A stretch of 64,000 nucleotides of DNA from Biscogniauxia marginata (Eukaryota; Ascomycota; Sordariomycetes; Xylariales; Xylariaceae): positions 248,001-312,000 of the forward strand of contig MU404058.1 of the NCBI GenBank assembly GCA_022695795.1, given 5' to 3'. Numbering within the stretch: position 1 is the stretch's first letter; the number at the start of each line of letters is the position of its first letter. A program made the position numbers and the translations under genes. Shown piece by piece: positions 1-53,923 of the stretch. The notes under the pieces were generated by a model. The model saw only the letters and a program-made list of their open reading frames with translations. It did no database searches and had not been told where the DNA came from.

Positions 1-3000
1 TTAAATATCTAGATATCTTTTTTATAATTTAAATAAATATCGATAGGTTTTTTAGTTCCATTAAGTTATAGTTTTTATTTTTTAATGTTTTAATAATTAT
101 TAATAGTTCCTTATTATAAATTTAATAATTTAGTTTAGCACCGTGTAATGCTTTAAATAAGTACGCGATTAGGTATTATTTTCCATTATTTTCTAATTAT
201 TTTAAAATTGCTTTAATGGCGAAATTTAAGGCGTTTATTTTTAGTCGTTTTTTTTATTTTCGTTTAGAAGTTTATATATAACCTTACTAGTTATTACTTT
301 TTTTAGCTACTAAAAAGCCTGTTTGACTTTTTCGGTGAAATGGAAAGCTTTTTTTATTTTTGTTAAGGTAGTTAGTTTCGTTAATAATTTAGTAATTTAC
401 TTAAAATCTTAAATAAGTTATTTAACGTAATTAATAAAGTTAAGAAATACGCGTATGTTTATAACACTTTTAGGTTTTAATTAATCCTTAATTATTATTA
501 TTTTTCTTTTTTAAATACGGATTTTTTTTAGATTTATCGTAAATTTTAAATAGTTTAGTTTTTTAATATATTATTTATTTTTAGTTAGATAAATAAATAG
601 GTTTACCTTTTTTAGGGCTTTTAATACTTGTTTTATATGTTTTTTATGTTTCTTTTCGCTTTTTAAGTAAATTAGTATATCGTTTAAATAAATAAATACG
701 AATTTATCCAGAAACTTACGAAGAACTATTATAATTATATATTAAAATGTAACGGGTACGTTAATAAGTTTAAACGGCATAACTTTATACTTATAATGTT
801 TATATACCGTTCGAAAGGCGGTGTATTATTTATGTTTTTTAGTTATTTTAATTATATAATAACTATCGCGAAGGTTTAATACTATAAAGATTTAGGCTTT
901 ATTAATTTACCTTTTTATAAGTTTTATTAGTAGTAATAAGTATTTTTTTTATTACCTTATTAAGGTGTCGGTAGTTAATTACTTATCATTATATTAAATT
1001 TCTTTTTTTATTAATTTGTTATTTTCCGTTTTTATTAATCTTTAGTATTATAATTACCGGGTATTTTAACGAGGATTTTAATTCTCGAATATATCCTTTA
1101 TTAAATTTCTTTTAAATTTCTTTTTATAGTGCTTTTTGTTTTTCTTAGTTTATAAGATATATTAAGAATAGTTTTAATTATTTTTTTTCCTTAAAATAGA
1201 TTTAGTGATTTTACTAGTTATGTTTTAATAATTCTTTTTTTATTTTATTTTTAAATAATTTATAAAAACGGAGGTATTTACGTAATACTTTTTTCGTTAA
1301 ATCTTTAAGCTTAGTTACTTGAATTATATAGGCGATATGTTTCGTCTTTATATTCGTTTTTTTAGTGTTATTTGCGGTATTTATCTTATAACTTGTAATA
1401 ATTAACTCCTCTTGATTTTAATCTTAATAAAGCGTGTTTATTTCGAAATTTATTTATAAATTACTTCTTTTAAGTTAATTTATTTCTAGGATTATGTCGT
1501 AACTTAATATATATGTAATATTAAAAATGACTTACTAATGGTTGGTTAACAGACAAGGGCTATGTCCCCGCACAGAAACTAGTACATTCTTTAAGTATAA
1601 ATAGGCTGCCTTCGGCAACACAACTCAGGTAGACTTTTCCCTCCTTAGACATCAATATTACACCAGTCTCACCCCTATCTTTCATATCGTCTATTGTTAT
1701 TTGCTTTTACATACGTACGTACCTACTAACACTTACTTAAAATGTTTTTAAATAGTTACTAAGAAAGGGACTATTTTTTTTAGCACCTTACTATTCTCGT
1801 AACTAAATATGTATTTTTTAAAGTTCCGTAGTTAATATAAACTTTATTTATATATTTATAATATATTATTTTTTTAAATTATTTTAATTAAAATATAGTT
1901 TTTATTTATTCCTAAATTTATAAGGGCTTTATATTCTTTTTTATTGTACTTGATTTTAATTATAATGGTATTATCGAGTCTCGACTAGACTTTATATAAA
2001 GACTTGTTATTTATGGCTTTTCGCTGCTTTATTAGCGAGAGTCTTTGCCGTTTTTTAGTTTTCTACGTCTTCTTTTTTTTAGGTTTTTTTAAGTCGCTAC
2101 GGCTTTAATATCTTTCTATTTTTAGGCTTTTATAAGAGCGTATTTTTAATAATCGTTATTTAAATAGTCTTTTTAATTACCTTTTAAGTAGTAAGGGGTA
2201 AAAAGTTTATTTTTTATATAAAACTTTGCATATTAAAACTTTAATTCTTTTTCGAGGGCCTTTTTATAGCTTAAATTTATTTTTCTATTAATTTAAAGCC
2301 TTTTAAAGTTCTAAATTATCTTTAAATAAAAGGCATAATCCTTAAATTTATTTATTAAAGGTAACTCGATATTTCCTTATAGATTTATATATATTTCTAA
2401 AAACTCTCCTTTTTTTTAAAGTATATCTTAACGATTCGTTTATAGTTTAATTTAGTTATACGTATTTTTATTTATTATTTTATTAAATTTTTTTTTATTA
2501 AACCGAATAAATTAGTGTCGTATTTAGCTCGTTTTTTGAGCTAATATGGAAGATGTAATCCTTTTTATAATTCTTATAATTCTTCCTTAATTTCGTTTTT
2601 TTCGAAACCCGCTTCGAGTAAATCGTGTATATCGCATAGTATTAAAATATAATATATATAACTCTAAATAATTACTTTATTGCTTTTTTTAAAACTTAAA
2701 TAAAGATAATACGTTTTAAGATAATGTGGCTATTATGGGACGTTATCGCAAATATATTCGTTTTTTTCCGTGTTATCGCTTTCTAGTTTTTAAGGATAGT
2801 AACTAGCTTTATTTTTAAAGCTTTAATGTAGCGATATATATTCTTTTTTTTGGTTTTTTTACCATTTTTAGCTTTATTTTAAGTTTTTCGCTTAATAACT
2901 TATTAAGTTAATTAATATTATTTATATAAAACTTCTAATTTAAGTTATTATATTTACTTTTTCCTTAATATATTTCGCATTTATCGTCGTTATAATGGCT

Positions 3001-4466
3001 TTAATATAGCTTATTATGGTTTAACTTAATTCCTAAGTCGTATTTTAGTTTATAAGTATTATACTTATATGGTAGTTCGCTTTTATTATATCCTTATTTG
3101 GCTTGTTTTAGCGTGAAATACCTTAAATACAAATGATTATACTTTAAATAATTTTTATAATCGACTTAATAATAATTATTAATTTCTTTTTATAAAAATT
3201 TCCTCGTTTTTCTTTGCCTTAATAATAATAATAATAAATACTTAATTTACTTTTTTATTATTTTCGAAATAAACCTTTATTTCGAAGGTTTTTTTCTCGA
3301 GTTAAGAAATCCTTTTTATTTTTTAAGGTTTCGGTACTTGTTTTTATAATGTCTTTTTTTTCTATAATTAAAACACTTAATAGTTAATTTATTTTGTTTT
3401 TTTGTTCCTTTTAAGTAACGTTAATTTCGATAAGGTTTAATTTAGTTTTAATACTTTTCCTTGTTTTAATACCACTTTTATAATTTCCTCTTTTTTACTA
3501 ATCGCCGTTCTTTTATTATATCGTCTTTTTCTTTTTAAAGTACCGTTTAAAGTTTTTTTTATTAATAATTATTATTATTATAACGTAGTTATTAAACTTT
3601 TTTAGGTTCTTTTTTTTATATAGGTTTATTTTATATAACTTATTTTTTATATAGTTTTTTAGTTCTTAATAAAACAAGTAATATAAGCTTTTAATAAATA
3701 GTTATAATTAACTTATAAGTTTCTTAAACTTAATAGCGTAATTTAAAGCCTTTTTATTTTATTATAATTTATAAAGTCAAGCTTCGACTTATTATTTAAG
3801 AATTAAGTTGTTAAATATAAACCTAAATTATTTTTTAAATTCTTTATAATCCTTAAAGACCTTTTTTATGTCTTTTTAGGCGTTTAGTCTATTTTCTAGA
3901 TAATCTTTTAATACTAGTTAAAACCAGGTTAAAGTAGTTTTAATAAGGAGTTAAAATACCGTGAAAACCTTTTATTCCTTAATAGTAATTATTCCGTAAT
4001 AAAACCATAAATAGGTTTTAACTTAAATTAAAAATCCTTTTAAATCGCTTAACCTATTATATTTACTAAGTATAATTAGTTTAAAACCTTTTATATTAAG
4101 GGTCGTTATATTATTTTTGTCGTTTAAGTTATTAAGGTCGCTATTATTTAAAAGTGATTTTACTTATTTGTTTTTTTAAGTGTTTTTTCCTCCTCCTTTT
4201 CTTTTTATTAAGTTTTAAAAGTGTCTTTTTAAGGCTCTTTTTTAATTACAACTATAATTAACTTTTATATTGGTTTTTTTAAACCTTTTTATTATACCGT
4301 AAAAAAGTTTAAAGCTTTCGTTTAAAAACTTATTAATTATTATTATTTTACTTATTTTTTTTCTTGTTACCCTTTAGTTTTAAGGAGTATACTTACTCTA
4401 AGACGGTTCGACCAAGAATCCCTTTTCTTAAATCAATGTTAAACATTAATTAAAGAGCTATTAAAA
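1..4466 (-). mobile_element. RIP-degraded Ty3/gypsy retrotransposon, internal region (3' end off window)
   Basis: Very AT-rich, with stops in all frames. It is homologous to the other gypsy copies in the window. Read on the minus strand, a reverse transcriptase segment lies near 665-710, where the catalytic motif reads YLND instead of YLDD, the Asp-to-Asn change expected from G-to-A mutation. A degraded gag zinc-knuckle segment is near 3320-3400. Its 5' LTR is the minus-oriented LTR at 4467-4987; the 3' LTR lies beyond the left window edge. A short GC-normal solo LTR is inserted at 1536-1731. No functional protein can be encoded. Confidence 0.85.
1536..1731. mobile_element. Un-RIPped solo LTR (about 196 bp) inserted in the gypsy relic
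   Basis: Comparison with the same site in the other copies (about 28755, 33945, 57746) shows a 196-bp insertion flanked by 5-bp direct repeats CTTAC (1531-1535 and 1732-1736). The insert ends in CA, holds a TATAAATAG box, and has normal GC and CpA content, so it arrived after the host element was mutated. Size, ends and promoter-like content fit a solo LTR, possibly Ty1/copia; the family is an inference. Confidence 0.7.
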
Positions 4467-4987
4467 TGTAATAAACCTCCTTATATATTCCTAGTTAATT
4501 AACTTTATAAGTAAATACGTATTAGGTTTTCTTGTTTTAAAGGTAATAATGAATTAAGATTAATTTAAGTAATTTATAATGTTTTATTCGTTAAAAAGAT
4601 TTTAAGGTACTTTTATTATAATATTAAAAAGTAATTATAATTTTAAATTAATAGCTAAAAAACTAGAATAAATAACTAGATATAAAAGAAATTTTATCCT
4701 TTTTATACTCATTTTCCTTTTATATATAATTTCCGTTTTAATATGTTAAATACCTTTAAATGAGTTTTATTTATACTTATTTATTCTTTATTAAATACTA
4801 TTAAATAAGTCTTATTTACACTTATCCATTCTCCATTAAATACTATTAAATAAGTTTTATCTACACTTATTTATATCACGTGATAATAGGTCGCCTTTCC
4901 CTTCAGGATCCATATCCGAGCCGGACGCAAGAAGAGTGGGAACAGTACCCCTGTCACTTGATTGCTTACCCTGGTTGGTTCGTGACA
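4467..4987 (-). repeat. 5' LTR of minus-strand gypsy element
   Basis: Begins TGTAATAAACCTCC and ends GGTTCGTGACA, matching the minus-oriented LTR ends seen elsewhere (TGTGACGAACCTCC ... CGTAACA). The first 400 bases are RIP-degraded while about 4880-4987 has normal composition. Confidence 0.75.
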
Positions 4988-5080
4988 TCTCAATCCATTA
5001 TTACCTCTAAATCAAGAAAACTTAGTACGTACTTACCTGTGAAGTCAGCTGACTAGGAACACACAAGGAGGTTCGTTACA
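4988..5080 (+). repeat. Fragment of a plus-oriented gypsy LTR (3' end only)
   Basis: Matches the last about 93 bases of the plus-oriented LTRs (for example 35480-35576), ending GGAGGTTCGTTACA. It abuts the opposite-facing LTR at 4467-4987 and is only lightly mutated. It marks the left border of the gene island. Confidence 0.7.
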
Positions 5081-6142
5081 CTTATATAGCTTATTTGCTT
5101 GTAAAGCACATTTTATTATTATTATTATTATTATTATTTTATATTTATATAATATAATAATAAATTAAAAAGTAAATAAAATCTTTATAAATAAAAGGAA
5201 AGTTTAATTATAATTATATTTTATTAATTTTAAATTAATAATGTTTTTTAAAAGTTTTTAAAAGTTTTTAAATCATTTTTATATTAACTTAATATAAAGA
5301 AATAGGCTTATTATAAAGATTTAGTCATTTAATAAACTATTTAGTGTTTTTACGCAGTTATAATTCTCTTATATTTTTGTCTTGTTAATTACGTGGGTTA
5401 AGTATAAATGCCGTTTTCAAATCTCCTGCCCAACATAAGCTGCCTATGTCATCTAAGATTATCAGATGAGACATGATAACTCGGAAGTTCAGGAGAAGCA
5501 TATTTCATGAAAAGCCTCACCGGTCTCTTCTGGTTTGAATTGCGTCATGCCTTATTACACTAGTAGAGTTTGATTATGCCTACCAGATAACAGAAATTAA
5601 AGAGGCTTTGTATGTCTGAGACCGAGAGGCGCCTGCAATAATATTACTGGCTAACTACCGCAATGTCCCACACAGCCTTATATTAGGACAGTATTCTACT
5701 ACCATACTAATATCATTGATACAGTTTTCATTAATTAGTAGGTATAAGACCGGGTTGCTTCTGGCCAATCTGCAACTCGAAGTTGGACTCAGTTTCCTGT
5801 ACCCCTTTGTTAAAATCATATATAATTGTAGTTTAGGCATCTCCCTATTGTAAGATATGGCTTGTGGTGAACTTGAAAGCGCCTGCTATAGGCTGTGTCT
5901 AACACACCTTGGGTCTTCGGCCTATCGGTAAGAAGTGTAACCACATCAATTCTGCAGTGAAATATGAATTTACTCACCCGGACTGTTCGTAAAAATGCAC
6001 ATTGATAACGAGGTAAAATATTCCTCTTCATAGATAAATCTAAGCCACATGTGCCATCCCTATCTTAAAGTCGTGTAGGTTCTACACTCTACAATGTATT
6101 TGTCTGGCTTGCTCTTTGTTTAAAATCGGTTTGTAGTCAGAT
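5081..6142. other. Transition zone without a recognised gene
   Basis: Starts with a TTA microsatellite (about 5113-5139) and AT-rich sequence to about 5390, then normal composition. Small open frames on the minus strand (5655-6031) resemble no family I know and show no splice-supported continuation. The last part probably contains the promoter of the DUF6594 gene. Confidence 0.5.
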
Positions 6143-7253
6143 ATGCCACAAGTTAACGAGCCAGAATCTTTTAATATGGAGTTCTTAGAGCCAGGCGGCT
6201 ATGACAGGTTGGCTGAATACATGGCCCGTCATCCCCAGCTCGGTATTTTTCGACGCTTCGGAGCCTTGGCATATGAGACGCTACTTTACTACCAGGCTGA
6301 AATTTCTGAGCTTGAATGTCGTTTGAGAAGTACTCAGGCTGAAGATAGAAATTCAGAAAACGAGAATCGCAGAGACTATGGTAGGGCATGGAACAAAATT
6401 ATGGAATCAGCCGCGTTAGAAGACCACGATAATCCTGAGCGAGAACAATATGATCTCATTATCAGGCTCAGGAAACTAATGGGAGAATATGGTAAGTCGT
6501 TACAAGGGACCGTTTTATATGAGGAACGGAACTAACCACCTTGGGAAACAGAAAAGGCGCTTTATTACCATGAGCCGACTCTCTCCTTACGACGTCCGCA
6601 CAGAAAGCTGCTCGAAGACCTGCAGGAGTGGATGGAAAGGCCTAGTTTAGGGAGAATTGAAATTCATAGTTGTGACTGGAAAACTTGGAGCAGAGACAAA
6701 GAAATTGAAGATGACCTCGTCACGTTCGAAAACTCAACCATGGACCAATTCACATCGCTCGTTACATACAAGCTGGTCGATGTGTACCACAGTATTCTGG
6801 GGAGACACATCCATGTGAGAATAAAGATGTTACCGCATTTATATAACATCATAACAACAATTTCTAACCGTTTCTTAGAAGAAGAGGAACGAAAACGAGG
6901 ACACCGGACTCCCAGTCACCAACGCAGATCACCGCCACATGGTAACGTATCCACACCGAACCATTGCCCGGTTCACACGAACTACTACCGTGTTGATGGC
7001 GTGCATGTTTCCAATTGTGGCTATTGTCATATTGTACACGATCGAAGACATGAAAAAACGCCTCGGCATAATTGCGGGTCTGACGGGCTTTTTCTCCATA
7101 GCAATGGAGATTTTCACAATGGCAACACTGCCCGAAATATTCGCGGCGACCGCCGCGTGAGTTCTTTGTTGCCACTCTATGCCACATTTACTAACTTGCC
7201 ATAGGTTCTCGGCCGTCCTGGTCGTCTTCATTGGAGCCTCTAGCAGCACCTAG
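6143..7253 (+). CDS. DUF6594-family membrane protein (intact, 4 exons)
   Basis: Exons 6143-6491, 6552-6814, 6879-7156 and 7205-7253 join to a 312-residue frame; introns are 60, 64 and 48 bp with GT-AG ends. The N-terminal part has the family signature (GGYDRLAEYMARHP, then FRRFG) followed by a charged, probably coiled-coil stretch. The C-terminus holds three hydrophobic segments, around TTTVLMACMFPIVAIVILY, RLGIIAGLTGFFSIA and FAATAAFSAVLVVFIG, as in fungal DUF6594 proteins. The family is widespread in Pezizomycotina and its biochemical role is unknown. No disabling mutation is seen. It may be only a neighbour of the peptide cluster. Confidence 0.88.
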
Positions 7254-8336
7254 GCTATTAATGTGGACAGTTTGACACCCTTTCGGGGTAAAGTTGTGCT
7301 AGTGTATTAGAGACATAGTGCATAGATACTGTGCGTTATTTGAGAACGGCTGGAAGGCTTTTCCTTCTTTTTAAGGCGTTAAGGATTGGATGGCCGGATG
7401 GAATTTACCGGCGGAGGCATACAGGATGTCTTAGATGTTTTAGGTAGGTTTTGTCCGAGCGTTCTACCCTCTCTTCCCTCTTATTTTTCTTTTATTTTCC
7501 GTTACCTTGGTTCTAGAAATGACGAAACGAATATATATACTATGATACAATATACATAAACGAAGTCGCACATAGAAATAGAGTTATAAAATATCCAAGA
7601 TAACGCCAAGCTTCCCAGTTAAGACGAATATAGACAGGTACGTTCCCGTTTGGGTAATTTGACATGTTGCACTAATAGAGCCTCATTAGGTGCTACAAAT
7701 CAATTTGCTACGCCCTGATTTGACGGTATTCTGCTCCGATATGGATACATATAAGCCACCTTCACATTTACATATTGTATTCGATTCTCCAGTCCTTTCC
7801 CTTCAAGGCCATATCTGGTTTTGTCACACTATCGATATTCTTTGATCTTAGAGGATTAAGAATGGGCTACAGATAAATGCCAAATACAAAGTATTTTAAG
7901 AAATGAAACTCGTAAAATATGGTCAAGTGCACTGCTTAAAAAGTGCATCTTAAAATATATCTATGAAGACTCGATATTCTTTTCTATGAAAAGAAATCAA
8001 TAGAATACCTCTTTCGCCAATTATACCCCTCATTCGAGATGACACAAGCCTCCCCCCACATGCTTGCAGATATCACATCGCTTGGACGTATCCCTTTGGT
8101 GCTTCCCGTAGGACAGAACCATGCATGAAGCCGTGTCGTATTGCCAGCTCAATTTGAGTCGGTGTGAGTTGGGCTCTGATCTGGCTCTTGTCTCCTGAAT
8201 GCTCTAAAATTTCGACCTTTGATTTTCTAATAGTTCTCGCAGATAATATCGTCAACAAGTGCGAGGGCGGACGAGACTAATATCAGTTCACATTTGTTTC
8301 TTGACTTAGGAGCTACTACTACTTCTTCTATATACC
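7254..8336. other. Intergenic region upstream of the amidase gene
   Basis: No gene recognised. A minus-strand open frame at 8073-8258 (61 codons) has no family resemblance. A TATA-like stretch TCTATATA lies just upstream of the amidase ATG. Confidence 0.5.
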
Positions 8337-10468
8337 ATGGAGACGCTGGAGGAACCTGTCGGGCACCGACTTGACGTGGTTACGGCTACGGCAGGTGATC
8401 TGCGCCAACTTCTCGAAGACGGAAAATACACCAGTGTAGAGTTGGTCCATCACTATCTCACTCAGATATCCAGACACAATCACGATGGCATGAAGCTGTA
8501 TGCTGTCACAGCAACTGCACCAGTTCGTAAGCTGCTCGAAGAGGCCATGGATTTAGATGTGGAGAGGCTAGTGTGCGGTGCCAGGTCGCGCCTCCACGGA
8601 ATTCCAATCACCCTGAAGGTTGCACTTTTGCCCGCGAGCTAATATGGCATCATTGACCTAGCTAACTAATTTCTCAACAAAGGACTTTTTTCTGACACCC
8701 TCTTTTGGCATGGATACGACTTGCGGGTCATTCGCGCTGAAGGGTCTTAAAGCTAGCGAAGATGCCACTATTGCAACCATGCTCAAGGAGGCGGGTGCCA
8801 TCGTGATCGCCCTGGATAATCTTTCCGTCCGTTGCCCCTCTATGTATTTGTGTGCTTTGGAAAAGTTTTGACAGTTGATTAGGAATGGGCTAATTGCAAA
8901 GGCTCCAATCTCACCGCTGGCTGGTCTGCTTTCGGTGGCCAGGTCAGAGCACTGCATAAATACTGAACATATGATGTGAATGCTAATGAACTGCAGACCC
9001 AATCACCTTATGTCTCGGGGGGTGTCGATCCTAAGGACAAGTGGCTAGGTCACAGCGTAAGTCACTGGTTTGCGTTTGAATTGGTATTAGCTGACCGTTT
9101 TTCAGACACCAGGTGGCTCCTCGTCAGGTTCCGCCGTTGGCACGACAGCTGGCTTCTCTCCAATCAGCATCGGCAGCGAGTCAGACGGTTCAATCGTGCA
9201 ACCGGCAATTCGTGCTTCTCTGTATAGCATGAAAGGAACCGGTAAGCTAATTTTGGAGTTCTTTATTGCCCCTTGTGGCCTGTTTAATGGGTAAAACATG
9301 TCTATTCTGGCTTGTTGTATGGTTTCTTGCTCCCGAGACATGTTTCACGGGTTAAAAACAGCGCAAATATAGCAATTACTGACTCCTGTTTCTGCAGTGG
9401 GGGATATCAACATGAAAGGGACCATGTCTGGAGGTGCGGGATTCGACAGTGCCGGGCCGATAGCCAAGTCTGTGGACGACATCGCCGACGTAATGGATAT
9501 CCTTCTCCCCGGAAGATACTTCCGCTCATATTTAACCAAGTCATGGCAAGGACTTCGCATTGCATACTTGGACTATAAGACTTGGCAATTTGCCGATTGG
9601 ATATGTGACCCAACTCCGGCTTTTGATGAGGAGCATGTAAGAACTGGCAATGATGATGCATAACGCGCATATACTCACTTATCTCTGCCCTTTTAGGAAG
9701 CTGCTATGATCAACGCCATGAAGAGGGCAGAGATGTTGGGCGCGCAGGTCGTTTTCAATGCACCGTTGTTGCTGCCGAGTAAGATTATAGAAAAGTATGG
9801 CACGGTTCAACCTGGCGAGCTTTTTAGTAAGTGTTTACTAAGATTCTGAGATTATTTCCCGCCTGTGTAAAATGACTAAATGGATAACCAGACCACGAGC
9901 TGCCTGTTAGCTTTCGGAAATTTCTTGCCTTGTTTAACGATCCCAATCTGCGAACACTCGAAGACTTGGTTGATTTCAACAAGAATCATGCGGAGCTTGA
10001 GCTTCCAAGCGGTAAGATACGTGAATGGCACGCTTTTGTCGCATATATTGATATGCGTCTTTAGATCATCCAAGCCAGAGCCAGTTAGAGCAGGGACTGA
10101 GAGACAATATGACCGATGAAGAGTACGAGAGTGGCCTTCAACACCTTCGCCAGAGCTTCTGCCACGCCGTGGATAAGTGCCTCCAGACAGCAGGAGCGGA
10201 TGTGATTATGGCGTCGGGGGAGTCCTACCTGACGAGCATTGCTTCTGGCGCTGGCTATCCCATTGCTAGCGTGCCGCTGGGACTATCCTCTTACAATGGA
10301 CGGCCCCATGGTATGGAGATCATGGCATGCAATGGCGAGGAGGAACATATTTTCAGGGTTATGTCAGCCTGGGAAACAACGTTTCCGGAGGCGAGAATCC
10401 CACCCCCATCGCTTTTGCAATGGCACACAGAGTCTGATTTCCAAGAGTATTTACTGGGCACAGAATGA
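8337..10468 (+). CDS. Amidase signature-family enzyme (intact, 9 exons)
   Basis: Exons 8337-8618, 8683-8826, 8883-8942, 8997-9056, 9106-9241, 9398-9636, 9697-9826, 9892-10011 and 10065-10468 give an uninterrupted 524-residue protein. Members hydrolyse amide bonds with a Ser-cisSer-Lys triad. Predicted residues are Lys94 (GIPITLK-D), Ser187 in the GGSSSGSAVG signature and Ser211 in SESDGSIVQPA; the Ser187-Ser211 spacing of 24 equals that of fatty acid amide hydrolase. No signal peptide is evident. Introns are 49-65 bp except the fifth, 156 bp; two have less usual donors (GTTGCA, GTCCGT). The substrate is unknown. It lies 6 kb from the UstYa group, so cluster membership is unproven. Confidence 0.92.
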
Positions 10469-14231: not shown

Positions 14232-15732
14232 TTAGATAACGTTGAAAAGACCCGGCCCAACTTTGACGATACGACTCGCTACCATACTCATACTCGAAGC
14301 GGCAAGAAGGACTCCGCCCCATACTATCAGCCCTACCCAGTTATTACCGTTACCCAAGATAGCGCCTGCTATAGGGTTGCTGACTAAAACCCCAAATCCA
14401 ACGAAGGATAATGTCATCCCAAGACGTGTCCCGATCTTACTCTTGTCTAGTGAGAGATTAACCACGCCCGCAGCTGGGAGGCCCAAAAAAGCGCCCGCAG
14501 AAAATCCGTACAGGACGCAGAGAATCGCAAGAGCGGGCTCTGTCCTGATTGCAATTAGACAGAAAGTCAAGATAGTGCTCACTACGGCCATAATTGTTTG
14601 CATGTTAATCGAGCCTATCTTGTTGGCATAGTAGCCCGGGATTAGCCGGCCAGCTAGAGAGCTTCCGTTAATAATGACTAGCAGGTATTCAGCCAGAGAC
14701 GGCGAGATGCTTGTCCAGTCGAGCACAAATAGCTGAATATAGTAGAAAATAATGTACAGGCCCATAAAGCCAAAGAACAGACTAAGGTTCAGTAGGAGGT
14801 AAGGAATGTCCTTAAAGGCCCCGTAATCGATAAGGCTACGCGTTCTTATCGGCATAGTTCTTAACTTCATTATAAGCAGCGGGACAAGCGAGGTGACAAG
14901 CAGTATGAAACCTAGGACGCGAGTTGCCCACCCGAAGCCAATTCGAGACTGAAGTTTGGTAAAGGTACTTGGATATATGACACCACCTGTAAATGAGGTC
15001 AACATCACTTGTTCCGGCACCACTAATCCTCCTGATCCAACTTTAAGTAAAATCATGGCTATATTCACCAAGCGCGCTACCAGCGGAGGAAGCACCGACT
15101 GCCAATGCGGTACTAGCATCGAAGTATTGGGATACAACCGCTGGTGCTGGCAAATACAGACAGCCAAACCCAAGACCCATCATGACAGCCTGAGTTAGGA
15201 ATACCTGCCAGTATTGAGTCGTGATACTCAGCAGGAACATTCCAGCGACCAGTAAGAGGGACCCTGCACATAGTAACGATCGTAAATATCCCAAATCAAA
15301 AATTGGCCCAACAACGATGGATACTAGGAATAGTAGAAAGGTCTGGGTGGAGCCAATCCATGAAACATTGGACGACGTTTGAGAATCGAGAAGATCAAGC
15401 GCGTAATATGTCTGAAAGACTCCGTACGTGTTCATCAACCGCCTAATACGGATAATGGTATTAGCAAGCTGAATTTTTATAGTAACCTGCACTGTAACGA
15501 AACTGACTGACCAGATGTTTAAATTCAAACAAAATGCGCCCAACACTTGCAGCCATGCAAAAAGATCTTCCTTTGGTGCATCAACATCCTGTACAAGCTG
15601 CGTAGGAATCATGTCTTCTATATTAATTCTGTCAGGCGCATCAAGACCTGGGGAATCATGATCTTTATTGCTCATGTTGCGTGAGTGGTCTTTATTTGTC
15701 TGTTGCAAGCTCATTGGTGGTTCACGTTGCAA
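14232..15732 (-). CDS. MFS transporter, monocarboxylate (MCT) type (intact, 3 exons)
   Basis: Exons 15732-15512, 15442-15069 and 14986-14232 give 449 residues; introns are 69 and 82 bp. Features of fungal MCT-type carriers are the hydrophilic N-terminus, AWLQVLGAF leading to MNTYGVFQTYY, SWIGSTQTFLLF, the VSQYFD ... AVGASSAGSALGGVIYP segment created exactly by the second splice, and IGFGWATRVLGF. About twelve hydrophobic segments follow. It should sit in the plasma or vacuolar membrane and move a small organic anion or a product. Placed next to the UstYa group it could export the cluster product (inference). The start could also be Met7. Confidence 0.9.
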
Positions 15733-16474
15733 TCAAAAGTCATCAGCAAAGAAAATAATGGGTGACGATCGACTTAATCGCGTACAAGGGCTCCGAGATC
15801 AGTTCAACGCGCACGTGATAAGTCATTTTCGTGCTGCCTTGGTATGAATAACCTTGAGTTCGTACGACATAGCTATCCCTAGGGGCTGTTCCGGTCTGCC
15901 TAGGTCGAACTCAATATATATCATATATAGGCCGTTACCTACAGTAAAGCTAAAGAGTATTGAGTACTTCAAGATTCTTTTAATTTGATATACTAGTATT
16001 TTCTTTCCAATAAATCGTGTCATTTGAAATATGAACCTTTAACAATATAGAAAGACATTTCAGAAGAGCAACATTCGTCTTCATTCGTGATATCTGACAT
16101 AGGTGTCCCAAGTGGACAGGGATCCCAATATGTATGTACCCAAATACAGTACAAAGGCCTTTCCTCCGTTACATGCATACCCCCTATTACACACTTGGCA
16201 CCAGCCACGACAAACCGTACAAAGCCATCTCACATGGATGCTAGTGGTGGTCAAAGCGTCATATAGTATTTAAGTTGGCTTTCACTGTGTAAGGAGACTA
16301 GTTCTCCAACATCAATACAACACCTAATTAAACCGTTCGCTTTTACACTGAATCAATGCCAACAATACCTATATTATGTTTCAATATGTTAATCAATCTA
16401 TTGAGACAGATTGCTTTGCCTGCTGTATTGCTGTAGCATCGAAAATCCCGTTTCCGGAGGTTACATGAGGCTCG
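15733..16474. other. Intergenic region between transporter and UstYa-like gene 1
   Basis: No gene recognised; minus-strand open frames at 15823-16023 and 16020-16208 match no family. It must include the transporter promoter (right side of its ATG) and the terminator of UstYa-like gene 1. Confidence 0.4.
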
Positions 16475-17499
16475 CTACGTCCCTCCCGCAGCTGCAGTGC
16501 CCGTCTCTGTCGGCCAAAGGACCCGGCCATCTGGGCAGGACTTGAAGCGCTCTATCATCGGTCGCGGCACCTCGTCTTCGTGCTTGAAGCACGCTGTGTG
16601 CTCCAGGGCCCACTTCTCCAGCTGACCCCAATCTTTGCACATTCTCACCTGACCAGCCCCTGTACCTGGAGGGTTTTGAAAACCAGCGTAGCGAGGCGTG
16701 TCATCTGCATTGCAGATGACATCTTGACGTAGTTGGTCGAGGCAGTGAAGCGCATGGACGAGGGCAATGCGCTGGGGAACGCCTTGTTCAGTATACATAA
16801 TGTAGCGGAAAAGCGTGCGCTGGTGTGGCCAAAGTCAGAGACAGCTATACGTAGATCAATATTATGGGTTTCTGTAAAATCAACTTACCAGACAGTGTAG
16901 GTGATGGAACCCCTGAAGCAAATACACCCCTTTATCCTCATCCCATGGGAACCTTAGAGCATGCGGAAGACGTTGCTCGTTGACGTAATCTTGTGATAAT
17001 GCTACAACTCCTAAGTCGCCGCTAAGTCTCTCCCATACGTCGGAGGCCGTAGTAAGATTGTCCGCAGTATATTCTGTGGATGAATAAATCTGTATCGGTA
17101 TCTCACGCTTGAGGCCCGCTGTTAAGAATCAGTGGAGGTTACCTTGAGAGCGGAAAGACAACTATTTGTACCAAATTGCGAAGCGCCGTCGGACGCTTGA
17201 GGTATTGATAACGGTTGGCCTCGGCAAATAAAAACCATATTGGCCGTCAATGAAATAGCAAGTAAGAAAGCTAAAGAGGTTGTGAATATCCATGACAAAG
17301 TCCTTGGCCAGCAAGAAAGCTGTTTATGTGGTGTCTCGGGAATTTCGTCACTCCACCTTTCCATTGAATCCCGTCGAAGGGCATGGTATGTCTCCCGATT
17401 CATTGGAATATAAGGTATTATGAACTTCTTGATCATAGACATAAGGGACGAAAGGTCTGGTTGTCTTGTATCTATTTTGACCCGTTGCCTAAAAGACAA
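16475..17499 (-). CDS. UstYa-family (DUF3328) oxidase-like protein 1 (intact)
   Basis: Exons 17499-17172, 17118-16889 and 16819-16475 give 300 residues; introns are 53 and 69 bp. UstYa-type proteins perform oxidative steps, such as side-chain cyclisation, in fungal peptide pathways (ustiloxin, asperipin, cyclochlorotine). Visible signatures: one membrane segment near residues 68-92 (TLSWIFTTSLAFLLAISLTA), AGLKREIP, the first HxxHC motif as HHLHC at the end of exon 2, and the second as HALHC followed by DQLRQDVIC. The true start may be a later Met (for example the one before NRETYHALR). It lies 440 bp downstream of the peptide gene on the same strand. Confidence 0.9.
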
Positions 17500-17941
17500 G
17501 AGATTATATAGGAGGAGACTATAAAGTGATTACATGATAATCCAGTATTAAAGATACATAGCTGGACGGCTGCATTGGCCTTCTCGCATGCAAACAGATC
17601 CATTGTATTCTGACCAACCCTGGTCGATCCGTCCCTCGCCACTGCAGCATTCTGCTGGGTGGTCGCCACCAGGAGATCCCTTACAGGACGAGACACGCAT
17701 AGGAAATACGCGCTAAAGGGCCGGCTTCAAACTGCTCCAAAATGTGTAACTCGAGCTATCTGCCTGCATATAACAGACGCAACCATATATATTATATTAC
17801 ACCTTAACACGTTGAAGTACTTTATGACGATTCGGTGACTGCAGATGTATTTAATTAAGCAAATGTATAACTAGAGGTGCTTATTCACCCAACAACACTC
17901 CGCAACAACACAACTATAAATCTGGCAGACAAATAACCAAC
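17500..17941. promoter_or_regulatory. Spacer between peptide gene and UstYa-like gene 1 (probable promoter)
   Basis: Contains the 3' end of the peptide gene transcript and, by position, the promoter of UstYa-like gene 1. A TATATATTATATTA stretch occurs near 17786-17800. A minus-strand frame at 17472-17696 matches nothing. Confidence 0.35.
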
Positions 17942-18277
17942 TCAAGAACCATCCGCATCAATCCAGGACTGGTCAATACCAGCTGGATAGACGACAGCCT
18001 CGTCAGAATCTACACCTATTATATTCTTAGCTGATTCTGCCTACTGTGAAGTGGAGCTCTCAGAGACCATACCGTCTCGTGCATCTACCCAGGATTGATC
18101 CACACCAGCCGGGTAAACGACAGCCTCATCGGAGTCTGGACACACAGGAACGTTTCAGAAACTCTCAACTCAATATTAGTAGGCTTGGTGAGACTTACCG
18201 GACCCTATACTACGCTGAATAGTACCGGCGGCGGCCATACCGGCCATGATCTGTAAGATGAATATGGTGGCTTTCAT
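17942..18277 (-). CDS. Candidate secreted RiPP precursor peptide with two core repeats (71 aa, 3 exons)
   Basis: Exons 18277-18199, 18135-18073 and 18015-17942; introns of 63 bp (GTAAGT...CCAG) and 57 bp (GTATGG...ATAG), both phase 1. Residues 1-18 form a signal peptide (MKATIFILQIMAGMAAAG). Two repeats follow, at residues 27-45 and 50-68: DSDEAVVYPAGVDQSWVDA and the same with Ile at the two variable Val positions. Each repeat has its own exon. The repeat exons differ at about ten codons, eight of them silent. Tyr and Trp in each unit are plausible targets for UstYa-type cross-linking, and YPAG(V/I)D recalls the Tyr-first, Asp-last cores of phomopsin-type peptides. No Lys-Arg Kex2 sites are present, only Arg22 and Arg46, which is atypical. 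If intron 2 is retained the protein stops at TAG soon after the first repeat. Confidence 0.72.
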
Positions 18278-19235
18278 ATTGATTTAAATGTAGATACGAA
18301 GTTTTGCGTGAAAGAGAAAATTTCTACCCAATACAAGCTTTTGTGATTTTTGAGTCAGGTAAAGGCCAAAGTCCATTTTGCAGCGGAACCTAACGCTTTA
18401 AGTCATTCTGTGTTTACCTATCTTGGCTAGATACATCGAGACATGCCAACATGTTCCGTAGTAACAGGTTACATATATCGCATTTTCCAGGTCTCCTGAA
18501 CTTTCGGCCACAATTCCGGGATGGAATATCGAGACGCAATGATTACGAAGTAAAACAATGTCGATCAGTCCTAATGTTTGAATATCTTTATGGTGTGAAC
18601 TTCATTTCATGTTGCAGAACAGGTTATCACCCCGCCCTCGATACTCAGCTGCAAAGGACCAACTGCGTGATAGTTTTAGAGGTATATTCGAGTCCAGTTA
18701 ATCTATGACATAAAGGTATGTAAGGAATACGAGGTTCGCAGACAGATCTAACGTGTCACGATTCCACAACTCTCAGTTAGACCAGAGTGCTATATTTTGC
18801 AGTGCGCTAGACACTCAAATAACCGACCCACTTTCAATAACAATTGTACATGTTCTTGGATTTAGCTAGGCAGGTATTAGAAGACAACTCAAGTTAACTA
18901 GCGAGATATTTAAATTTAAGGCCGTAGCGTTTTAGCCACCTCATAGTACCTTATGTTAGGTACCTATACATACTTACCATCCCTGTTAAAATCTATAACG
19001 GCCGACTCCTTAGTGCACGACTAATCATTGGTGAGTAGTTTATAGTTACGTTTATATGTAGGTAGTTGCATAGTTTCTGTGAGGACTACGTACGTAAGGA
19101 TACTATAAGCTCCCTAAAATCGATACAACTCGCATAATCTCACTCCTAGCAGTACCTACCACAAGTTGCAAACCCCTCATTACGTGCACCATGTCATGCA
19201 GCTTTCTCGGATCTCGGAGAACACTACCACGAACA
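18278..19235. other. Promoter side of peptide gene and gene-free spacer
   Basis: The first few hundred bases above 18277 should hold the peptide gene promoter. A plus-strand open frame at 18451-18708 (85 codons) has no family resemblance and no signal peptide. The remainder to 19100 is AT-rich without RIP and shows nothing recognisable. Confidence 0.4.
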
Positions 19236-20141
19236 TTAACTTGTTGGGTGTGATTCAAGGAAGCCACGAAGATTATTGACCCGATGCTCCTCAGCCCATC
19301 CAACTAACTCGCTGTAATTACGACATAGCCGGGCGTTACCCCAACCAGTCACTCCACCGAGTACAGGGTCGATGGGCTCTAACGTCGTATCAGCCGCACA
19401 AGTGAGGCTCTGTCGCAAGTAATCGAAGCAGTGCCGCATGTGGGGGAATGTGCTCGCGTCATTGTCGGCAGGGTTCGAGTGCAACGTCATGTAATAGTTG
19501 CGATGGATCGACCACTAGTAGGTAAAGATAATCACTCAACGTTTGCTCGGATATGTAGATAATGTTTGTAGGCTATGGGGTCACCTACCAAGCAGTGTAA
19601 CTGATGGATAATTGATAACGTATAAACTTGCTGGTTGCCTGGCGGGTATCGCACTGATCCTTGCCCGACTGAGGTTGAGGTATTTTTGTCAGCAGGGGCA
19701 TTCGGACGTAGGCTATGGACCCGATATTAAGTATTGTTACGTACGAGGTACGATGGATTCCCAGGCTTCCTCAGTACTATTATCATCACTGGGATCTGCA
19801 CCAAAGGTTCGGTTATATGTGAATGCCAAGTTGATGGTATGGAGACCAATATTAGGTGATTGATTTGACTTTGAGGAAGGTTGCTCGAATGCGATGGTAG
19901 TATCACATGACGATATCGAGGACGCAGTTACTCCTATGATGATACCCATGCAGCATGAAAGAATAGCAACTGTCGTGATAGAGACGAGGCGACTGATGCG
20001 GGATATCTCGTTTCTCTGCGATCTCAAGTGCACAGGTTCTCTGTCACTTGGGATAGATAGGCTGCGTAGTATTCGTTCGTAAAAGGCCGTCATTATTGAA
20101 TGTAAAGGATGTTTATACCGATACTCTAGCTCATGCATCAC
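19236..20141 (-). CDS. UstYa-family (DUF3328) oxidase-like protein 2 (intact)
   Basis: Exons 20141-19745, 19668-19589 and 19514-19236 give 251 residues; introns are 76 and 74 bp. A basic N-terminus precedes one membrane segment (LVSITTVAILSCCMGIIIGV). Then come AWESIVPLGQGSVRYP (restored by splice 1), the first motif HQLHC at the end of exon 2, WSIHRNYY, and the second motif HMRHC followed by FDYLRQSLTC, a strongly conserved family block. The exon break directly after the first HxxHC motif is shared with genes 1 and 3. It is divergently transcribed from gene 3 with 457 bp between the ATGs. Role as for UstYa: oxidative modification of a peptide (inference). Confidence 0.9.
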
Positions 20142-20598
20142 TCATAGAAAAGGTCATTGGCGTTAAATAGGTCACTTACTCAGTATATTGCCCTAGCATA
20201 CAATTCGACAAGATTATCAGTTATCTCAGTGTGAAGTCGCTGTGCATTGAATTTAATCAATGCAGTGTGACACCAGGGGACTTTCGTCACAGTAACCTGT
20301 CTACTAGTTTGTACCTTTACATTTAGACTTGCATCATATCCACACGCTCTCCCCCGCTACGTTGCAGACTGATCGATGATTAGGAAAATTTTGTAACACC
20401 TCTCTAGGTAGGTAGTACTGGAGTGTAGATGAAAAGAACTATCCCTAGTCACGATCGGAGAGTTTCTAACCATGTCAGCGGCGCTATCTATTTTTCCTCG
20501 CATACAATTAGGAACACCAAGTTAGAGCGCTCTATTCAAGCCTGAACTTGTGATATAGCACGGATAGAGGCGTATCTAAAAACGGTTGATACATCACA
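20142..20598. promoter_or_regulatory. Divergent promoter region between UstYa-like genes 2 and 3
   Basis: 457 bp separate the two start codons, so both promoters must lie here. It contains CTAGGTAGGTAG at 20404-20415; the same 12-mer recurs at 21933-21944 downstream of gene 3. The sharing suggests co-regulation, but this type of motif is frequent in fungal intergenic DNA. Confidence 0.5.
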
Positions 20599-21697
20599 AT
20601 GCTGAGCTTAAACAGGGACCGTGCAGGAAACAACGATTCTATGTCAAGTCAGTCCGACGAGCCTCTCTTGATGATCGAGGATGCCATATACAGCAATACT
20701 CAGCAGATATCAGGGGATTGGAAACCAAAACTTCAAACCCCCTTGTATCTCCATGGGACATTGATCCTGCTTTATTCTGCAATATATTTGCTGATTATAC
20801 TCTCTACATCTCATCCAACCTGTCCTAATACTCGAATCGATTCCCAAAATTCTCGTCCACGTATGGCTCCTTTTCATAGTTTTCCTCGTTTTGGACTCCG
20901 TAGATGTATCTCTAATTAATTTTAAAGTTCCAAGTCATGAAGGCCTTATCTGGGAAGAACGCAAATTTCCTACCAATCTAGTGAACAACCCATTTTCAGG
21001 GAGCCCTCGGCCGAAGCTAGACGATGCATGGCATCATCTCCTCCGCAGTAGGAAGCTTACCCAGAACACGAAAAGTTTTGATTTGTTTTAATAACTATTT
21101 TTATCTAGATGACAACATTCGGGTCCCGAAAACTTACTTAGAGGAGCTAAATTTAACGTCAGTGTATACCAAGGATGGGATGGAAGGAATTGCCTCCCTT
21201 AGTGTATATCACTCGTTACATTGTTTAGTATGTATCACTTAAGCACTTCAGAGACACTATCAGCTGTTTCTGGAGCTGACAACTGCAGAAAAAAGTAAAA
21301 AGGATGTTATTCAAGGACTATTACCATAAGGGCAAAACGGAAGAAGCAATGGCTAGGGAGATAAAGCATGTGGGTAAGTTTGAGAGCTGGTCATTCAAGT
21401 TGTATGCTACTTGGGTATGTATACCAACATTAATGTTTTGATACAGATCATTGCGTAGAATACATTCGGGAGGCTCTTATGTGCCAGCCAGACATGTCTA
21501 TGGTGACCTTCCGCTGGATTAACAACACAGCTCAACATGAGGATAAATCTGCCTTCTACCCGACAAATTTCGATACCTCAATGCATATGTGTGCCAATTG
21601 GGAGGCCTTGGACTCGTGGGCTGAGGAGCGCACCTTCAATTTGTTTGAGGTTGACATGTTGCAACGGCCAATGCCAGATGAGCAGATGAGACAATGA
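20599..21697 (+). CDS. UstYa-family (DUF3328) oxidase-like protein 3 (intact, 5 exons)
   Basis: Exons 20599-20860, 20928-21047, 21109-21227, 21289-21373 and 21447-21697 give 278 residues; introns are 67, 61, 61 and 73 bp. One membrane segment (LHGTLILLYSAIYLLIIL) is followed by LIWEERKFP, the DDAWHHLL block, DNIRVPKTYLEELNLTS, the first motif HSLHC, and the second motif HVDHC followed by VEYIREALMCQPD. The second His of that motif is formed across the last intron. It belongs to a clearly different UstYa subtype from genes 1 and 2 (more introns, DNIRVP block), so the three are not recent tandem copies. Confidence 0.9.
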
Positions 21698-22064
21698 GTT
21701 CTAGTAGCGAGTCGTTTGATGATTGCGACCCATGATCGATCCCTGTACTCTATATAGCCTCGACGAATGAACACAATGCACCACTGAACTTTCTAAACAT
21801 TTCAGCTTTGAATTATCCGTTTTGTGGTAGACTAGAGAAATTTGTGCAATGTATTTACTTTAGGTAATTAGTTGCAGTACTCTTTGTTGAGATGAGACAA
21901 AGATGTGAGGATAGGATCAGTTCAAGGTGAGTCTAGGTAGGTAGGCAGAGCCCACCTATATATATAGATACAGCTGACCAGGGGTCGTACAGCCCATTTC
22001 AACATTCTTCATACGACATATGGTCGGCACGCCATTTGTATTTGGGATGATCCTACATAACACA
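21698..22064. other. Convergent spacer between UstYa-like gene 3 and the methyltransferase
   Basis: Both flanking genes end here, so it holds their 3' ends. It contains CTAGGTAGGTAG (21933-21944) and a TATATATATAG stretch near 21958-21968. No gene seen. Confidence 0.4.
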
Positions 22065-23519
22065 TCATTCCTTCAAAATTGCTTCCACGATACCATCTGC
22101 ATCATTCTGTAATGGAAGCCAGAACTTGACAACTGTTAGACCGGCCTCCTCGAGCAATGCCTGCCACTGTCGCTCAGTTCTCTCCATGCCTGCGTTAAAC
22201 GCCATCATAGACATATCGAGCATAGCATGAAATGTTGAAGCTCCACGTTCTGGAATGATCATTTCATGCAGCAAGAGCTTAGAGTAGCCAGGCTTCATGG
22301 CCTTCTTGACTTGCTCTAACATCGTTAAGCATTTGGGATCAGACCAGTCATGTAATATATGATGATAGAAGTATGCTCGTGCCCCTAGTATATATCAGCT
22401 TAGTTTGTTGGATCGAAGGCTTTCTTTTCTTACCTATTACTAGCTACTCAGCGAAGAAATTGTACGTCATTAGCTCGATAGCCGGATCAATATTTCGTAT
22501 GTTGCCGATTACGGGCGCCAGGTCTTGAAGAACCAGCCGCCCTTCTAGATGAGGATACTTCGAACGGAATGCAAGAAGGTCATGGCCCTTTCCGCCCCCC
22601 ACGTCTACAAGCAGAGATGAATCATTGGCAATAACAACTTCATCCAACAGCCTTTCCTTCACAGGAAACCAATCCACCCAATACTCTCTAGCTCCCATTG
22701 TGTTCCCCATGAAATTATTGAAGTCTTTCAAGACCTGTGGCCTGGAGCTGATTAGTTGGAATGTTGTCAGTTTTGTTTGGAAGGCATATTGCATGAAGCC
22801 ATCGTGCGGATCTGTAGGACAACGATAGCCGGCTTCTTGGAGATATGTAGGTGCTTTATTTGCTGCTCCTACAATTATTTCACCGCTGGTAGAATTGGAT
22901 ATTAGTTGATGGCCTATATGTCCTGGTCTAGTTTGCGGAACTTAGTGATATATCGGTTACTCACACCATCCTATGCCCAGCTGCAATTCCTTCCGTCGTC
23001 ATAGCCTTGGTCACAGGTGTCGTTGTCCACATCCGTTCGCCGACCTCTTCAACGAAGCCTGTCGAAGCTAATGGTCTTAAAATTCGTACTAAGACCTAGG
23101 TCAATATTTTTCGGACCAGGACTGTTAAGTATCCCTAAAAACCAGGGAAACATACCGATCAGCAATTCTTCCCCTCTTGATAGCGTGGCAAGCTCCTTTG
23201 AGGACACTGGGCCGCCATGATCTACAATCAATTTGAAAAGATGGAGGTCGACAGCAATCCTAGCAGCGACAGCAACAACAGGCTATCGTTCTTGGTGAGC
23301 CCAAAGCCACTAGATGGTTAAGGATGAGAGATGTAAGTGAACAAAACGGCGTACCGAAAAAGCTAGGTCCACCGCGACAGTCTCTAGGTTCTCAAGGGAA
23401 TTTGAGAGTCTTCTGCTTAGTTGTATAGCCTCCGTTCTAGCATTCTGGTCACCGTTTGATATTTTCGCACTAATATGGCCGAGCTTTTCTATGAGGGCAC
23501 AAATCTGATCTGGATCCAT
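22065..23519 (-). pseudogene. SAM-dependent O-methyltransferase with one premature stop
   Basis: Exons 23519-23355, 23282-23156, 23088-22965, 22885-22434 and 22384-22065 form a 395-codon frame typical of fungal secondary-metabolism O-methyltransferases (start at the Met of MDPDQ). Landmarks: AARIAVDLHLFKLIVDHGGP of the N-terminal dimerisation part, APTYLQEAGYR, the SAM-binding LLVDVGGGKGHDL, and the catalytic His region HHILHDWSD. Codon 286 (22446-22444) is TAG, where the family context expects a residue such as Gln; CAG to TAG is a CpA-to-TpA change of RIP type. It removes the catalytic His. No alternative splice avoids it. If read through or sequencing error, the gene would be intact. Likely substrate: a cluster product hydroxyl. 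Confidence 0.82.
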
Positions 23520-47084: not shown

Positions 47085-47545
47085 TGTTACGAACCATAAG
47101 ATTAAAGAAGTTCCTTACCAGGGTGTCGAAACACGGACTAAGAGTAGTTAGATTAATCGGTTCAAATTTTAATCATGATTTAACATTACATAATTAAATT
47201 CTTGTTACTTTAAGAATTTATGAGAATTTAATAAGTTAAATTCTTATAAATAAAAAGATTTAACGGTATTTAACATACCAAAATAAGGAGTATAAAAAAT
47301 AAAAAATAAAAATAAAAAAGGCAGGATTTTTTATGTAATTAGTCTCTCGTTCTTTAGCTATTAATTTAAGACTATAGTTACTCCTTAATATTATAATAAA
47401 AGTACCTTAAAATCTCTTTAACGAATAAAGCATTATGAATCTCTTAAATTAACCTCGATTCACTGTTACCTTTAAATCAAGAAAACCTAGTACGTACTCA
47501 CCTGTGAAGTTAGCTAACTAGGAACACACAGGGAGGTTCGTCACA
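47085..47545 (+). repeat. Solo or terminal plus-oriented gypsy LTR that truncates the diterpene cyclase gene
   Basis: Starts TGTTACGAACC and ends GGTTCGTCACA (461 bp). The left flank (TTTTA) and right flank (GCAGG) do not match, so it is not a simple insertion with target duplication; a deletion or rearrangement joined it to the cyclase coding sequence. The right end is less RIP-mutated than the left. Confidence 0.75.
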
Positions 47546-49442: not shown

Positions 49443-50640
49443 AGTGAATAGCTGGATTGTTCCAAGTGTTCAAAAAGTTTTCATGATGACTAGCCGAGAT
49501 ATTTTGTATTTTTACGAGTCTAAATGCGCAGGATGTTAATTCCCAAGCTAACATGTGATGATCTTTATCTAGTAAGATCCTCAGGTTTATATAGTCTTTA
49601 TTCAGCCTTGGAGGTAGTTCATTAACAAGTTCTAGGGACGAAATGATTATTATATGCGGAGTACTCACACCTATAAAGTTATTCACTGTATACATAGGAA
49701 TAGTGGTGCTGTGCTCAGGCAGGTGTCAAATCTCATGATCAGTTTATTTATTAATTAATTATACCTCTAGGCCACTAGTGGAAACATCCGCATCATGAAT
49801 ATTTCAGTATTTATAATAACAGAAAAGGAAATGCTCTGAAAAACGCCTATTCGAGACCGGTAGAGCCACATAGCTTCGGGGGTATTATACTGCCCCCTTT
49901 TCTCGGCCGATGTAATTTATCTCTACCGCACCTCTTAATCATTATTCCTCCAACACTAATTTAGGCAGCCAATGAGCTATTGAGGTGACGATATCCTGTC
50001 CTACGTACTGCTAGGGATTTTAACTACGCAACTAGAGACCATAGGCGATCATCAAGTACTTGGTTGGGACGAGTAAAATATTCCGCAGGATTCAAGGACG
50101 TCGGGACCGATAACATGCTTAAATTGAGCCAAGAAACTATCATTTATGTAGGTCTCAGTTGCCACATCCCATAGGATTCATGCAGTATGATCGCAGGGTA
50201 TGTAAATGCCCTCAGTTTCGCCAGTGTAACCTTGGGCAGATTGTAGATATACTTATGAATGCAGTAAGACGATACCTACCAAATCCTTATGTAGCAAGTC
50301 GGAAATTCACGGTAGGATCAGGTCGGAGTAAAACAAAGTACCAAGTCATATGATAACCATGCCGCGAATATCGTGGCCTCATGGGACAAATAGCCGGTCC
50401 GATTGTGTAATTTGGAGTAACATTAGTTAGACACAATACATAGTCACTAAGGAACCCCTGGTTCCCCTAAAATCACATTTCTACCCTGAAGTACCAATAG
50501 TCGTTGGTACGAAAGATAATAAATTATCACTCCTGACGTTGGAAGCGGGGGCGGGTACTATGCAAAGAGACCTGCACGTTGATGTGTAGATATACAGCGC
50601 TGATCATGAGGGATGAAAGAGATGTTCTGCACAAGGATTA
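49443..50640. other. Upstream region of the cyclase relic, no gene recognised
   Basis: Normal to mildly AT-rich DNA. The minus-strand frame at 49417-49695 overlaps the cyclase start in another frame and matches nothing; the 64-codon plus-strand frame at 50159-50353 is unrecognised. It probably held the cyclase promoter. Confidence 0.45.
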
Positions 50641-53454: not shown

Positions 53455-53923
53455 TATAACGAACCTCCTTATATGTTCTTAGTCAACTAACTTCACAAGT
53501 AAATACGTACTAGGTTTTCTTGATTTAAAAATAACAATGAATTAAGATTAGTTTAAGTGATTTATAATGTTTTATTCGTTAAAGAGGTTTTAAAGTACTT
53601 TCACTATAATATTAAAAAGTAATTATAATCTTAAATTAATAACTAAAAAACTAAAATAAATAACTAAATATATAGGAAATTTCAATCTATTTATACTTAT
53701 TCTTCTTAATACATATTCCCTTTTTACACCAACTATTATATAAAAAGAATCTATTTAAATCTGAAATTAACTTAAATTCCATTTATAATAATTTAAGAAT
53801 AACTTAAATCACATTACATAACGTTTTATTAAATGACGAAAATAAATCTTCTTATACTTACATTCTTAGTTCGTATTTTAACACCTTTATAAAAAATCCT
53901 TTTAATATAATTAGTTCGTAATA
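53455..53923 (-). repeat. 3' LTR of gypsy element D (469 bp)
   Basis: Starts TATAACGAACCTCC and ends TTCGTAATA, as in the other minus-oriented LTRs. Confidence 0.75.

Follow-up and report, generated by a model that had tools for sequence, protein, structure and literature searches.

Few fungal peptides made with UstYa proteins have known products, and those reported comprise three confirmed groups of dikaritins together with victorin and the epichloecyclins (PMC9233826). The dikaritins or ust-RiPS (ustiloxin, phomopsin and asperipin-2a) share a secreted precursor with repeated Tyr-containing cores and adjoining genes for UstYa (DUF3328) oxidases. UstYa enzymes are required for cyclisation through Tyr in the ustiloxin, phomopsin and asperipin cores (PMC7329392; PMC9233826). 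The five-gene definition of a dikaritin cluster includes a tyrosinase, clusters without one or more of the genes being accepted, and two HxxHC motifs are quoted as the criterion for a UstYa protein (PMC12048977). In the fungus Biscogniauxia marginata (genome 45.3 Mb), a 64-kb stretch of contig C4 (915,867 bases), hereafter the window, contains a cluster of about 9.3 kb (14232-23519) in which a small precursor gene lies with three UstYa genes, an O-methyltransferase (OMT) gene and a gene for a carrier of the major facilitator superfamily (MFS), as established by Pfam searches exon by exon and by annotation. An MFS carrier is likewise shared with the dikaritins, which also have a methyltransferase, although of another kind than the OMT here. 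Because the core family of the precursor recurs with UstYa and OMT genes in other fungi, the cluster is very probably a biosynthetic pathway to a peptide of ribosomal origin that UstYa proteins modify.

The earlier note on this DNA, made from the letters alone, had described a small secreted protein with duplicated cores at 17942-18277, and this protein coincides with the annotated B. marginata protein F5X99DRAFT_215343 (P0001). Translated separately, the three exons reproduce 69 of its 71 residues in order, and the two remaining codons straddle introns. Given this exon-intron structure, the in-frame stop between the two cores is intronic, which goes beyond the earlier note. The N-terminal leader, judged by hydropathy alone, reaches 2.2 in 9-residue windows, and the stretch that separates the two units holds a single Arg. 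Between the cores, 12 of 54 bases are different; these fall in 10 codons, and in eight of them the change is silent. When an equal number of changes was placed at random (20,000 trials), the mean was 7.8 residue changes and one trial was as low as two. The duplication of the core is not due to chance. A genome search found no copies of the 22-residue unit in B. marginata beyond these two.

The last exon piece of each UstYa gene passes the PF11807 cut-off of 25 bits, and the upstream pieces score 14.8-21.4 bits or give no match; the PF11807 matches lie 0.9, 1.0 and 3.2 kb from the precursor. Both HxxHC motifs can be read directly in UstYa#1 and UstYa#2; in UstYa#3 the second one is interrupted by an intron and its first His is placed by eye. 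All three genes had been proposed from the sequence together with the OMT and the carrier, and Pfam recovered the whole set, the MFS pieces falling just below the cut-off. A protein search with UstYa#2 returned 53 homologues at E ≤ 1e-8. For one of them, P0022, no solved structure was matched by sequence, and an AlphaFold model (alignment A4, 48 of the 53 homologues) is of middling confidence (mean pLDDT 75.7). Both HxxHC motifs are predicted to lie close to the starts of two long helices. Foldseek with this model gave 0 matches in the PDB at E ≤ 0.001 (11 at E ≤ 10), and thus the model yields no mechanism.

The precursor belongs to a conserved family. Searching 5.8 billion proteins gave 22 candidates, 21 of them at E ≤ 10 including P0001; 19 of the 21 reach E ≤ 1e-4, and the motif is also present in the two with the poorest values (E 0.013 and 0.77). 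The named sources are Biscogniauxia, Clonostachys, Seiridium, Xylariaceae, Hypoxylon, Cordyceps, Beauveria, Anthostomella, Xylaria, Aspergillus and Penicillium. These 21 proteins hold 48 units, 47 of them full-length, of a nearly invariant 19-residue sequence, DSDEAVVYPAx(V/I)DQSW(V/I)DA. D3, A5, Y8, P9 and A10 are present in 47 of 47 full-length units and W16 in 45 of 47; position 11 is variable (S 19, Q 12, E 6, K 5, G 4, N 1). The unit is a fixed frame with one open position. Dibasic sites occur between intact units in eight of the 21 members, and P0018 has one among degenerate units. In P0019, of B. mediterranea, the annotation appears by eye to read the second unit in a shifted frame, so that the public gene model probably misses an intron.

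Linkage was scored as a shared contig label between each of 20 precursors from other genomes (P0001 excluded) and either the UstYa#2 homologues or the best 120 of 298 OMT homologues. Each protein cluster bears one label, taken from its longest contig, so links of multi-strain clusters can be missed; serial locus tags were used where present. A UstYa#2 homologue shares the contig of nine of the 20 precursors, an OMT homologue that of at least 10, and at least 12 are joined by one or the other. Both are found with at least seven precursors, those of Clonostachys byssicola, Seiridium cardinale, Xylariaceae FL1019, Anthostomella pinea, Xylaria cf. heliscus, Hypoxylon cercidicola and Beauveria gryllotalpidicola. 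Among the matches listed, two precursors have UstYa alone (Aspergillus spectabilis and B. mediterranea), and at least three have OMT alone (Cordyceps fumosorosea, Xylariomycetidae FL0641 and Penicillium herquei). Locus tags run in series in A. pinea (120090 precursor, 120100 UstYa, 120120 OMT) and in B. gryllotalpidicola (003175, 003174 and 003173, in the same order); in H. cercidicola the precursor and UstYa numbers are consecutive (433838/433839), although such numbers need not track position. Close UstYa and OMT tags also occur in Monosporascus ibericus (DL764_008805/008807), Hirsutella minnesotensis (HIM_01340/01342) and Arthroderma sp. PD_2 (FQN49_000912/000913), for none of which a precursor was among the matches. 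The earlier note's proposal of a peptide pathway gains support from the recurrence in at least 12 relatives. Its own test, that homologous small proteins might never be found near UstYa genes, came out the opposite way at the level of shared contigs and locus tags.

This linkage also bears on whether the repeat protein could instead give rise to a linear, pheromone-like secreted signal that is processed by proteases only, the adjoining UstYa genes serving another purpose. Secreted repeat proteins free of UstYa neighbours are common (6120 of 7878; PMC7329392), and a unit so well kept among distantly related fungi would suit a signal. Set against this, UstYa#2 homologues accompany nine of the 20 precursors, with consecutive numbers in three species, Tyr is kept in every one of the 47 units, and pheromone-like repeat proteins are almost always without UstYa neighbours, with three exceptions reported (PMC7329392). 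A purely linear signal is thus very unlikely.

Several observations weigh against a UstYa-modified peptide pathway. The precursor of P. herquei (P0021) reaches only E 0.77 despite bearing the motif, and no dibasic Kex2 site lies between the two units in the window. Tyrosinase (PF00264) has 13 matches genome-wide and 0 on C4. Five of the 20 precursors are unlinked among the matches listed (P0007, P0008, P0009, P0013 and P0015), and three of the 20, retained in the count, sit on contigs shorter than 1 kb. Three of the five unlinked precursors are from Beauveria, whose listed UstYa and OMT clusters, representing 11 and 21 sequences, may display the contig of another strain. In B. mediterranea the best OMT lies on a contig of 81,245 bases and the precursor and UstYa on one of 48,945 bases. 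Contigs shared at megabase scale, for instance in Seiridium and P. herquei, are weak proof that genes lie close together; in Seiridium, moreover, the UstYa model (P0062) aligns to just 20% of the query. Finally, the OMT exon 22941-22444 of B. marginata ends in an in-frame TAG within a conserved stretch, which the earlier note had not reported.

The annotated OMT (P0075) evades this TAG by omitting about 23 residues that are present in 10 of 10 aligned relatives, picked from 119 other listed matches. Relatives of this OMT are widespread (298 matches at E ≤ 1e-60, the best 120 listed), and the next match by E-value elsewhere in the genome, on contig C79, is 38% identical, with shorter pieces reaching 50%. 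The OMT of B. marginata is probably defective. The methyl step may have been lost in this species, or the TAG may be an assembly error; given the stop, the local product may be unmethylated. The TAG and the dropped residues would also fit a decaying cluster that once made a peptide and is no longer functional in B. marginata, a possibility that overlaps with the pathway proposed here. The setting lends this some weight: the cluster sits in an island at 6-24 kb with about 44% GC, and the flanking AT-rich stretches (22-24% GC) carry a signature like that of repeat-induced point mutation (RIP), with TpA/ApT of 1.30-1.35 and (CpA+TpG)/(ApC+GpT) of 0.48-0.49. However, the island itself lacks the signature (0.87-0.88 and 1.19), the divergence between the two cores is rich in silent changes, the UstYa and MFS exon pieces lie in stop-free frames with splice sites plausible by eye, and loss of the OMT need not halt the pathway. 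Decay of the whole cluster is therefore rather unlikely.

The UstYa, OMT and MFS genes could also serve the synthesis of a polyketide or a non-ribosomal peptide, with the precursor as a bystander, since UstYa proteins are reported to act in pathways to other kinds of product than ribosomal peptides (PMC12048977). No polyketide synthase or non-ribosomal peptide synthetase domain was found among 14 of the 16 open reading frames (ORFs) of at least 120 residues in the window, which were scanned against Pfam, the other two being plus-strand frames opposite other genes. Together with the recurrence of the precursor-UstYa-OMT association in other species, this leaves such a pathway highly improbable. 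The same scan found no peptidase domain.

For the peptide pathway favoured here, a sequence of steps can be proposed. The precursor would enter the secretory path, and the UstYa oxidases may bind at its conserved flanks, acidic and Trp-containing, and join side chains of Y-P-A-x-(V/I)-D-Q-S-W by oxidative cross-links. By analogy with Tyr and Ile in ustiloxin and phomopsin, the likeliest partners would be the invariant Tyr and the beta-branched V/I four positions on. Because three UstYa genes are present, Trp is a second possible partner. The acidic stretch before Tyr and the QSWVDA after it may be recognition or spacer parts, and the precursor suggests the single Arg as the site where the two units would be separated. 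The OMT would methylate an oxygen in those relatives that carry it, and the MFS carrier would export the product. That no tyrosinase match lies on C4 speaks against such an enzyme acting as it does for ustiloxin, unless one is supplied from another locus. A fuller picture, offered as tentative and more doubtful than the pathway itself, is of a widespread and conserved, tyrosinase-independent, O-methylated UstYa peptide with a near-invariant unit, one open position (YPA-x-V/I), a possible second cross-link at Trp and release at single Arg. If true, a unit so constant among far-apart Ascomycota would suit a role as the fungus's own signal better than one as a fast-changing toxin.

Other UstYa-linked repeat precursors are encoded in the same genome. 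A repeat scan took in 18 stretches, none longer than 9,901 bases, on 16 other contigs, all UstYa-bearing and with no UstYa-free control set. On four of the 16 it found small repeat precursors, about 3 kb or less from a UstYa exon (Table 1), which speaks for the proposed pathway. One of them, L031 on contig C1, has its units parted by single Arg as in the precursor of the window.

Table 1. Positions of the cluster genes, their parts and the other repeat precursors; numbers are window positions unless a contig is given.
Feature	Position	Strand	Details
Precursor gene	17942..18277	-	71 aa, hydrophobic N-terminus then two cores; three exons; matches annotated P0001
Precursor exons	18277-18199, 18135-18073, 18015-17942	-	79, 63, 74 bases
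Precursor ATG / stop	18277 / 17944-17942	-	
Precursor introns	18198-18136, 18072-18016	-	both GT..AG
Core unit 1	18080..18135	-	DSDEAVVYPAGVDQSWVDA; first base of first codon at 18199, upstream of intron 1
Core unit 2	17954..18010	-	DSDEAVVYPAGIDQSWIDA
UstYa#1	16475..17529	-	PF11807 43.1 bits on last exon, 16.4 on middle exon; start codon not fixed
UstYa#1 motifs	16906, 16756	-	HHLHC, HALHC
UstYa#2	19236..20093	-	PF11807 57.7 bits on last exon; PF11807 pieces span 20141-19236; putative start
UstYa#2 motifs	19606, 19442	-	HQLHC, HMRHC
UstYa#3	20599..21697	+	PF11807 57.8 bits on last exon; pieces span 20590-21697; putative start
UstYa#3 motifs	21210, 21440	+	HSLHC; second ends in DHC, first His placed by eye in preceding exon
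O-methyltransferase	22065..23519	-	Methyltransf_2 with dimerisation domain; 67.7 bits on last exon; annotated P0075, 372 aa
MFS carrier	14232..15714	-	MFS_1 28.0 and 32.4 bits on two exon pieces, each below the 33.4-bit cut-off
AT-rich, RIP-like stretches	1-6000, 24001-47500, 50201-64000		surround two gene islands; from dinucleotide ratios
L022	G000:C39:266000-275900, about 1000-1570	-	signal-like N-terminus; 7 units (S/D)PQFVIDGYEETAPSSE, mostly between KR sites; ~3 kb from UstYa exons
L031	G000:C1:1255000-1264900, about 3050-3500	-	signal-like N-terminus; at least 7 units SELDADVAYDKPVKVARG with single-Arg separators; ~1.7 kb from UstYa exon
L018	G000:C15:250500-260400, about 3000-3300	-	three units NWN(A/G)AAWSNFVKSYVDGAE with KR sites; ~1.9 kb from UstYa exon
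L027	G000:C21:301000-310900, about 6560-6790	+	three units like TNWYADSAAGMAESL with basic sites; ~1.3 kb from UstYa exon

Elsewhere in the window, a second small GC island holds exons on the minus strand (47518-49469) of a putative class II diterpene cyclase, which we take it to be from a DxDD motif (DADD at 48395); Pfam gave a weak Prenyltrans match and nothing else. Pieces at 8310-10468 on the plus strand are presumably amidase-like, judged by their motifs; three of them have no Pfam match at E ≤ 0.01, and the fourth has a weak, unrelated one. A DUF6594 gene at 6137-7204, also on the plus strand, is split across two adjacent frame stretches in the Pfam search. The window has no Rfam matches.

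The asperipin core, FYYTGY, is unlike the YPAx(V/I)D of the window. The latter also departs from the dikaritin pattern YxI(G/P) (PMC7329392). Further differences from the dikaritins are the nearly fixed 19-residue unit, the contig without a tyrosinase match and the single Arg in place of dibasic sites between cores. The methyltransferase is of the Methyltransf_2 type and has close relatives elsewhere, but it is not of the N-methyltransferase kind found in dikaritins and is interrupted here. The label dikaritin-like, used in the earlier note, is fair as to the general gene set and fails for the tyrosinase and dibasic Kex2 sites of the classical set. Victorin and epichloecyclin precursors are likewise secreted and multi-core and lead to cross-linked peptides, whereas their cross-link partners differ, a distinction drawn here from descriptions and not from sequence (PMC9233826). 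The lichen clan R1 shares UstYa genes and an O-methyltransferase with the window; conversely, genes for tyrosinase and sulfatase are part of the clan, and the available part of that survey reports no precursor with repeats for it (PMC12048977). The same source states that O-methyltransferases have never been reported in dikaritin clusters (PMC12048977), and the OMT homologues that share a contig with precursor and UstYa in at least seven of 20 relatives, by serial tags in two, bear on this statement.

The closest described group may be type G-6 (#13), a Kex2-processed repeat protein with 49 members in 19 genera, 46 of the 49 with a UstYa gene nearby, and a repeat profile of Tyr and several Asp (Umemura 2020; PMC7329392). 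Five of the 19 genera are among the precursors of the window's family (Cordyceps, Beauveria, Hypoxylon, Aspergillus and Penicillium), six more appear solely among the OMT or UstYa matches listed (Monosporascus, Talaromyces, Histoplasma, Emergomyces, Emmonsia and Blastomyces), and eight are absent among the precursor, UstYa and OMT matches listed. The G-6 survey demands Kex2 sites, which the precursor of the window lacks between its units, and the survey text, as far as available, names no OMT (PMC7329392). Because the genera, the UstYa linkage and the Tyr/Asp profile overlap, the family of the window may be G-6, already counted without a name or product, a likeness drawn from the text description and not from the repeat logo.

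Other sources touch on the same ground. Ustiloxin-like clusters were found by precursor similarity in a survey of Hypoxylaceae (PMC8403587), 23 fungal clusters for ribosomally synthesized and post-translationally modified peptides are predicted for A. pinea, given without detail in the text available (PMC10763133), and a transcriptome study reports UstYa genes of Beauveria to be induced in insects, with no link to a precursor of the window type in the accessible text (PMC12142624). The strings EAVVYP and DQSW are absent from the available text of PMC6339444, a full-text literature search with six core fragments gave one match, to an unrelated cone-snail paper, and the literature matches listed include no named product for this peptide family. 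The description of the precursor as unusual accordingly stands for its core strings and not for its distribution, since it belongs to a conserved, widespread family, maybe one counted before (PMC7329392). The near-fixed unit, free at a single position and accompanied by the same types of oxidase and methyltransferase in several genomes, offers a clean start on how UstYa proteins recognize and cross-link their cores.

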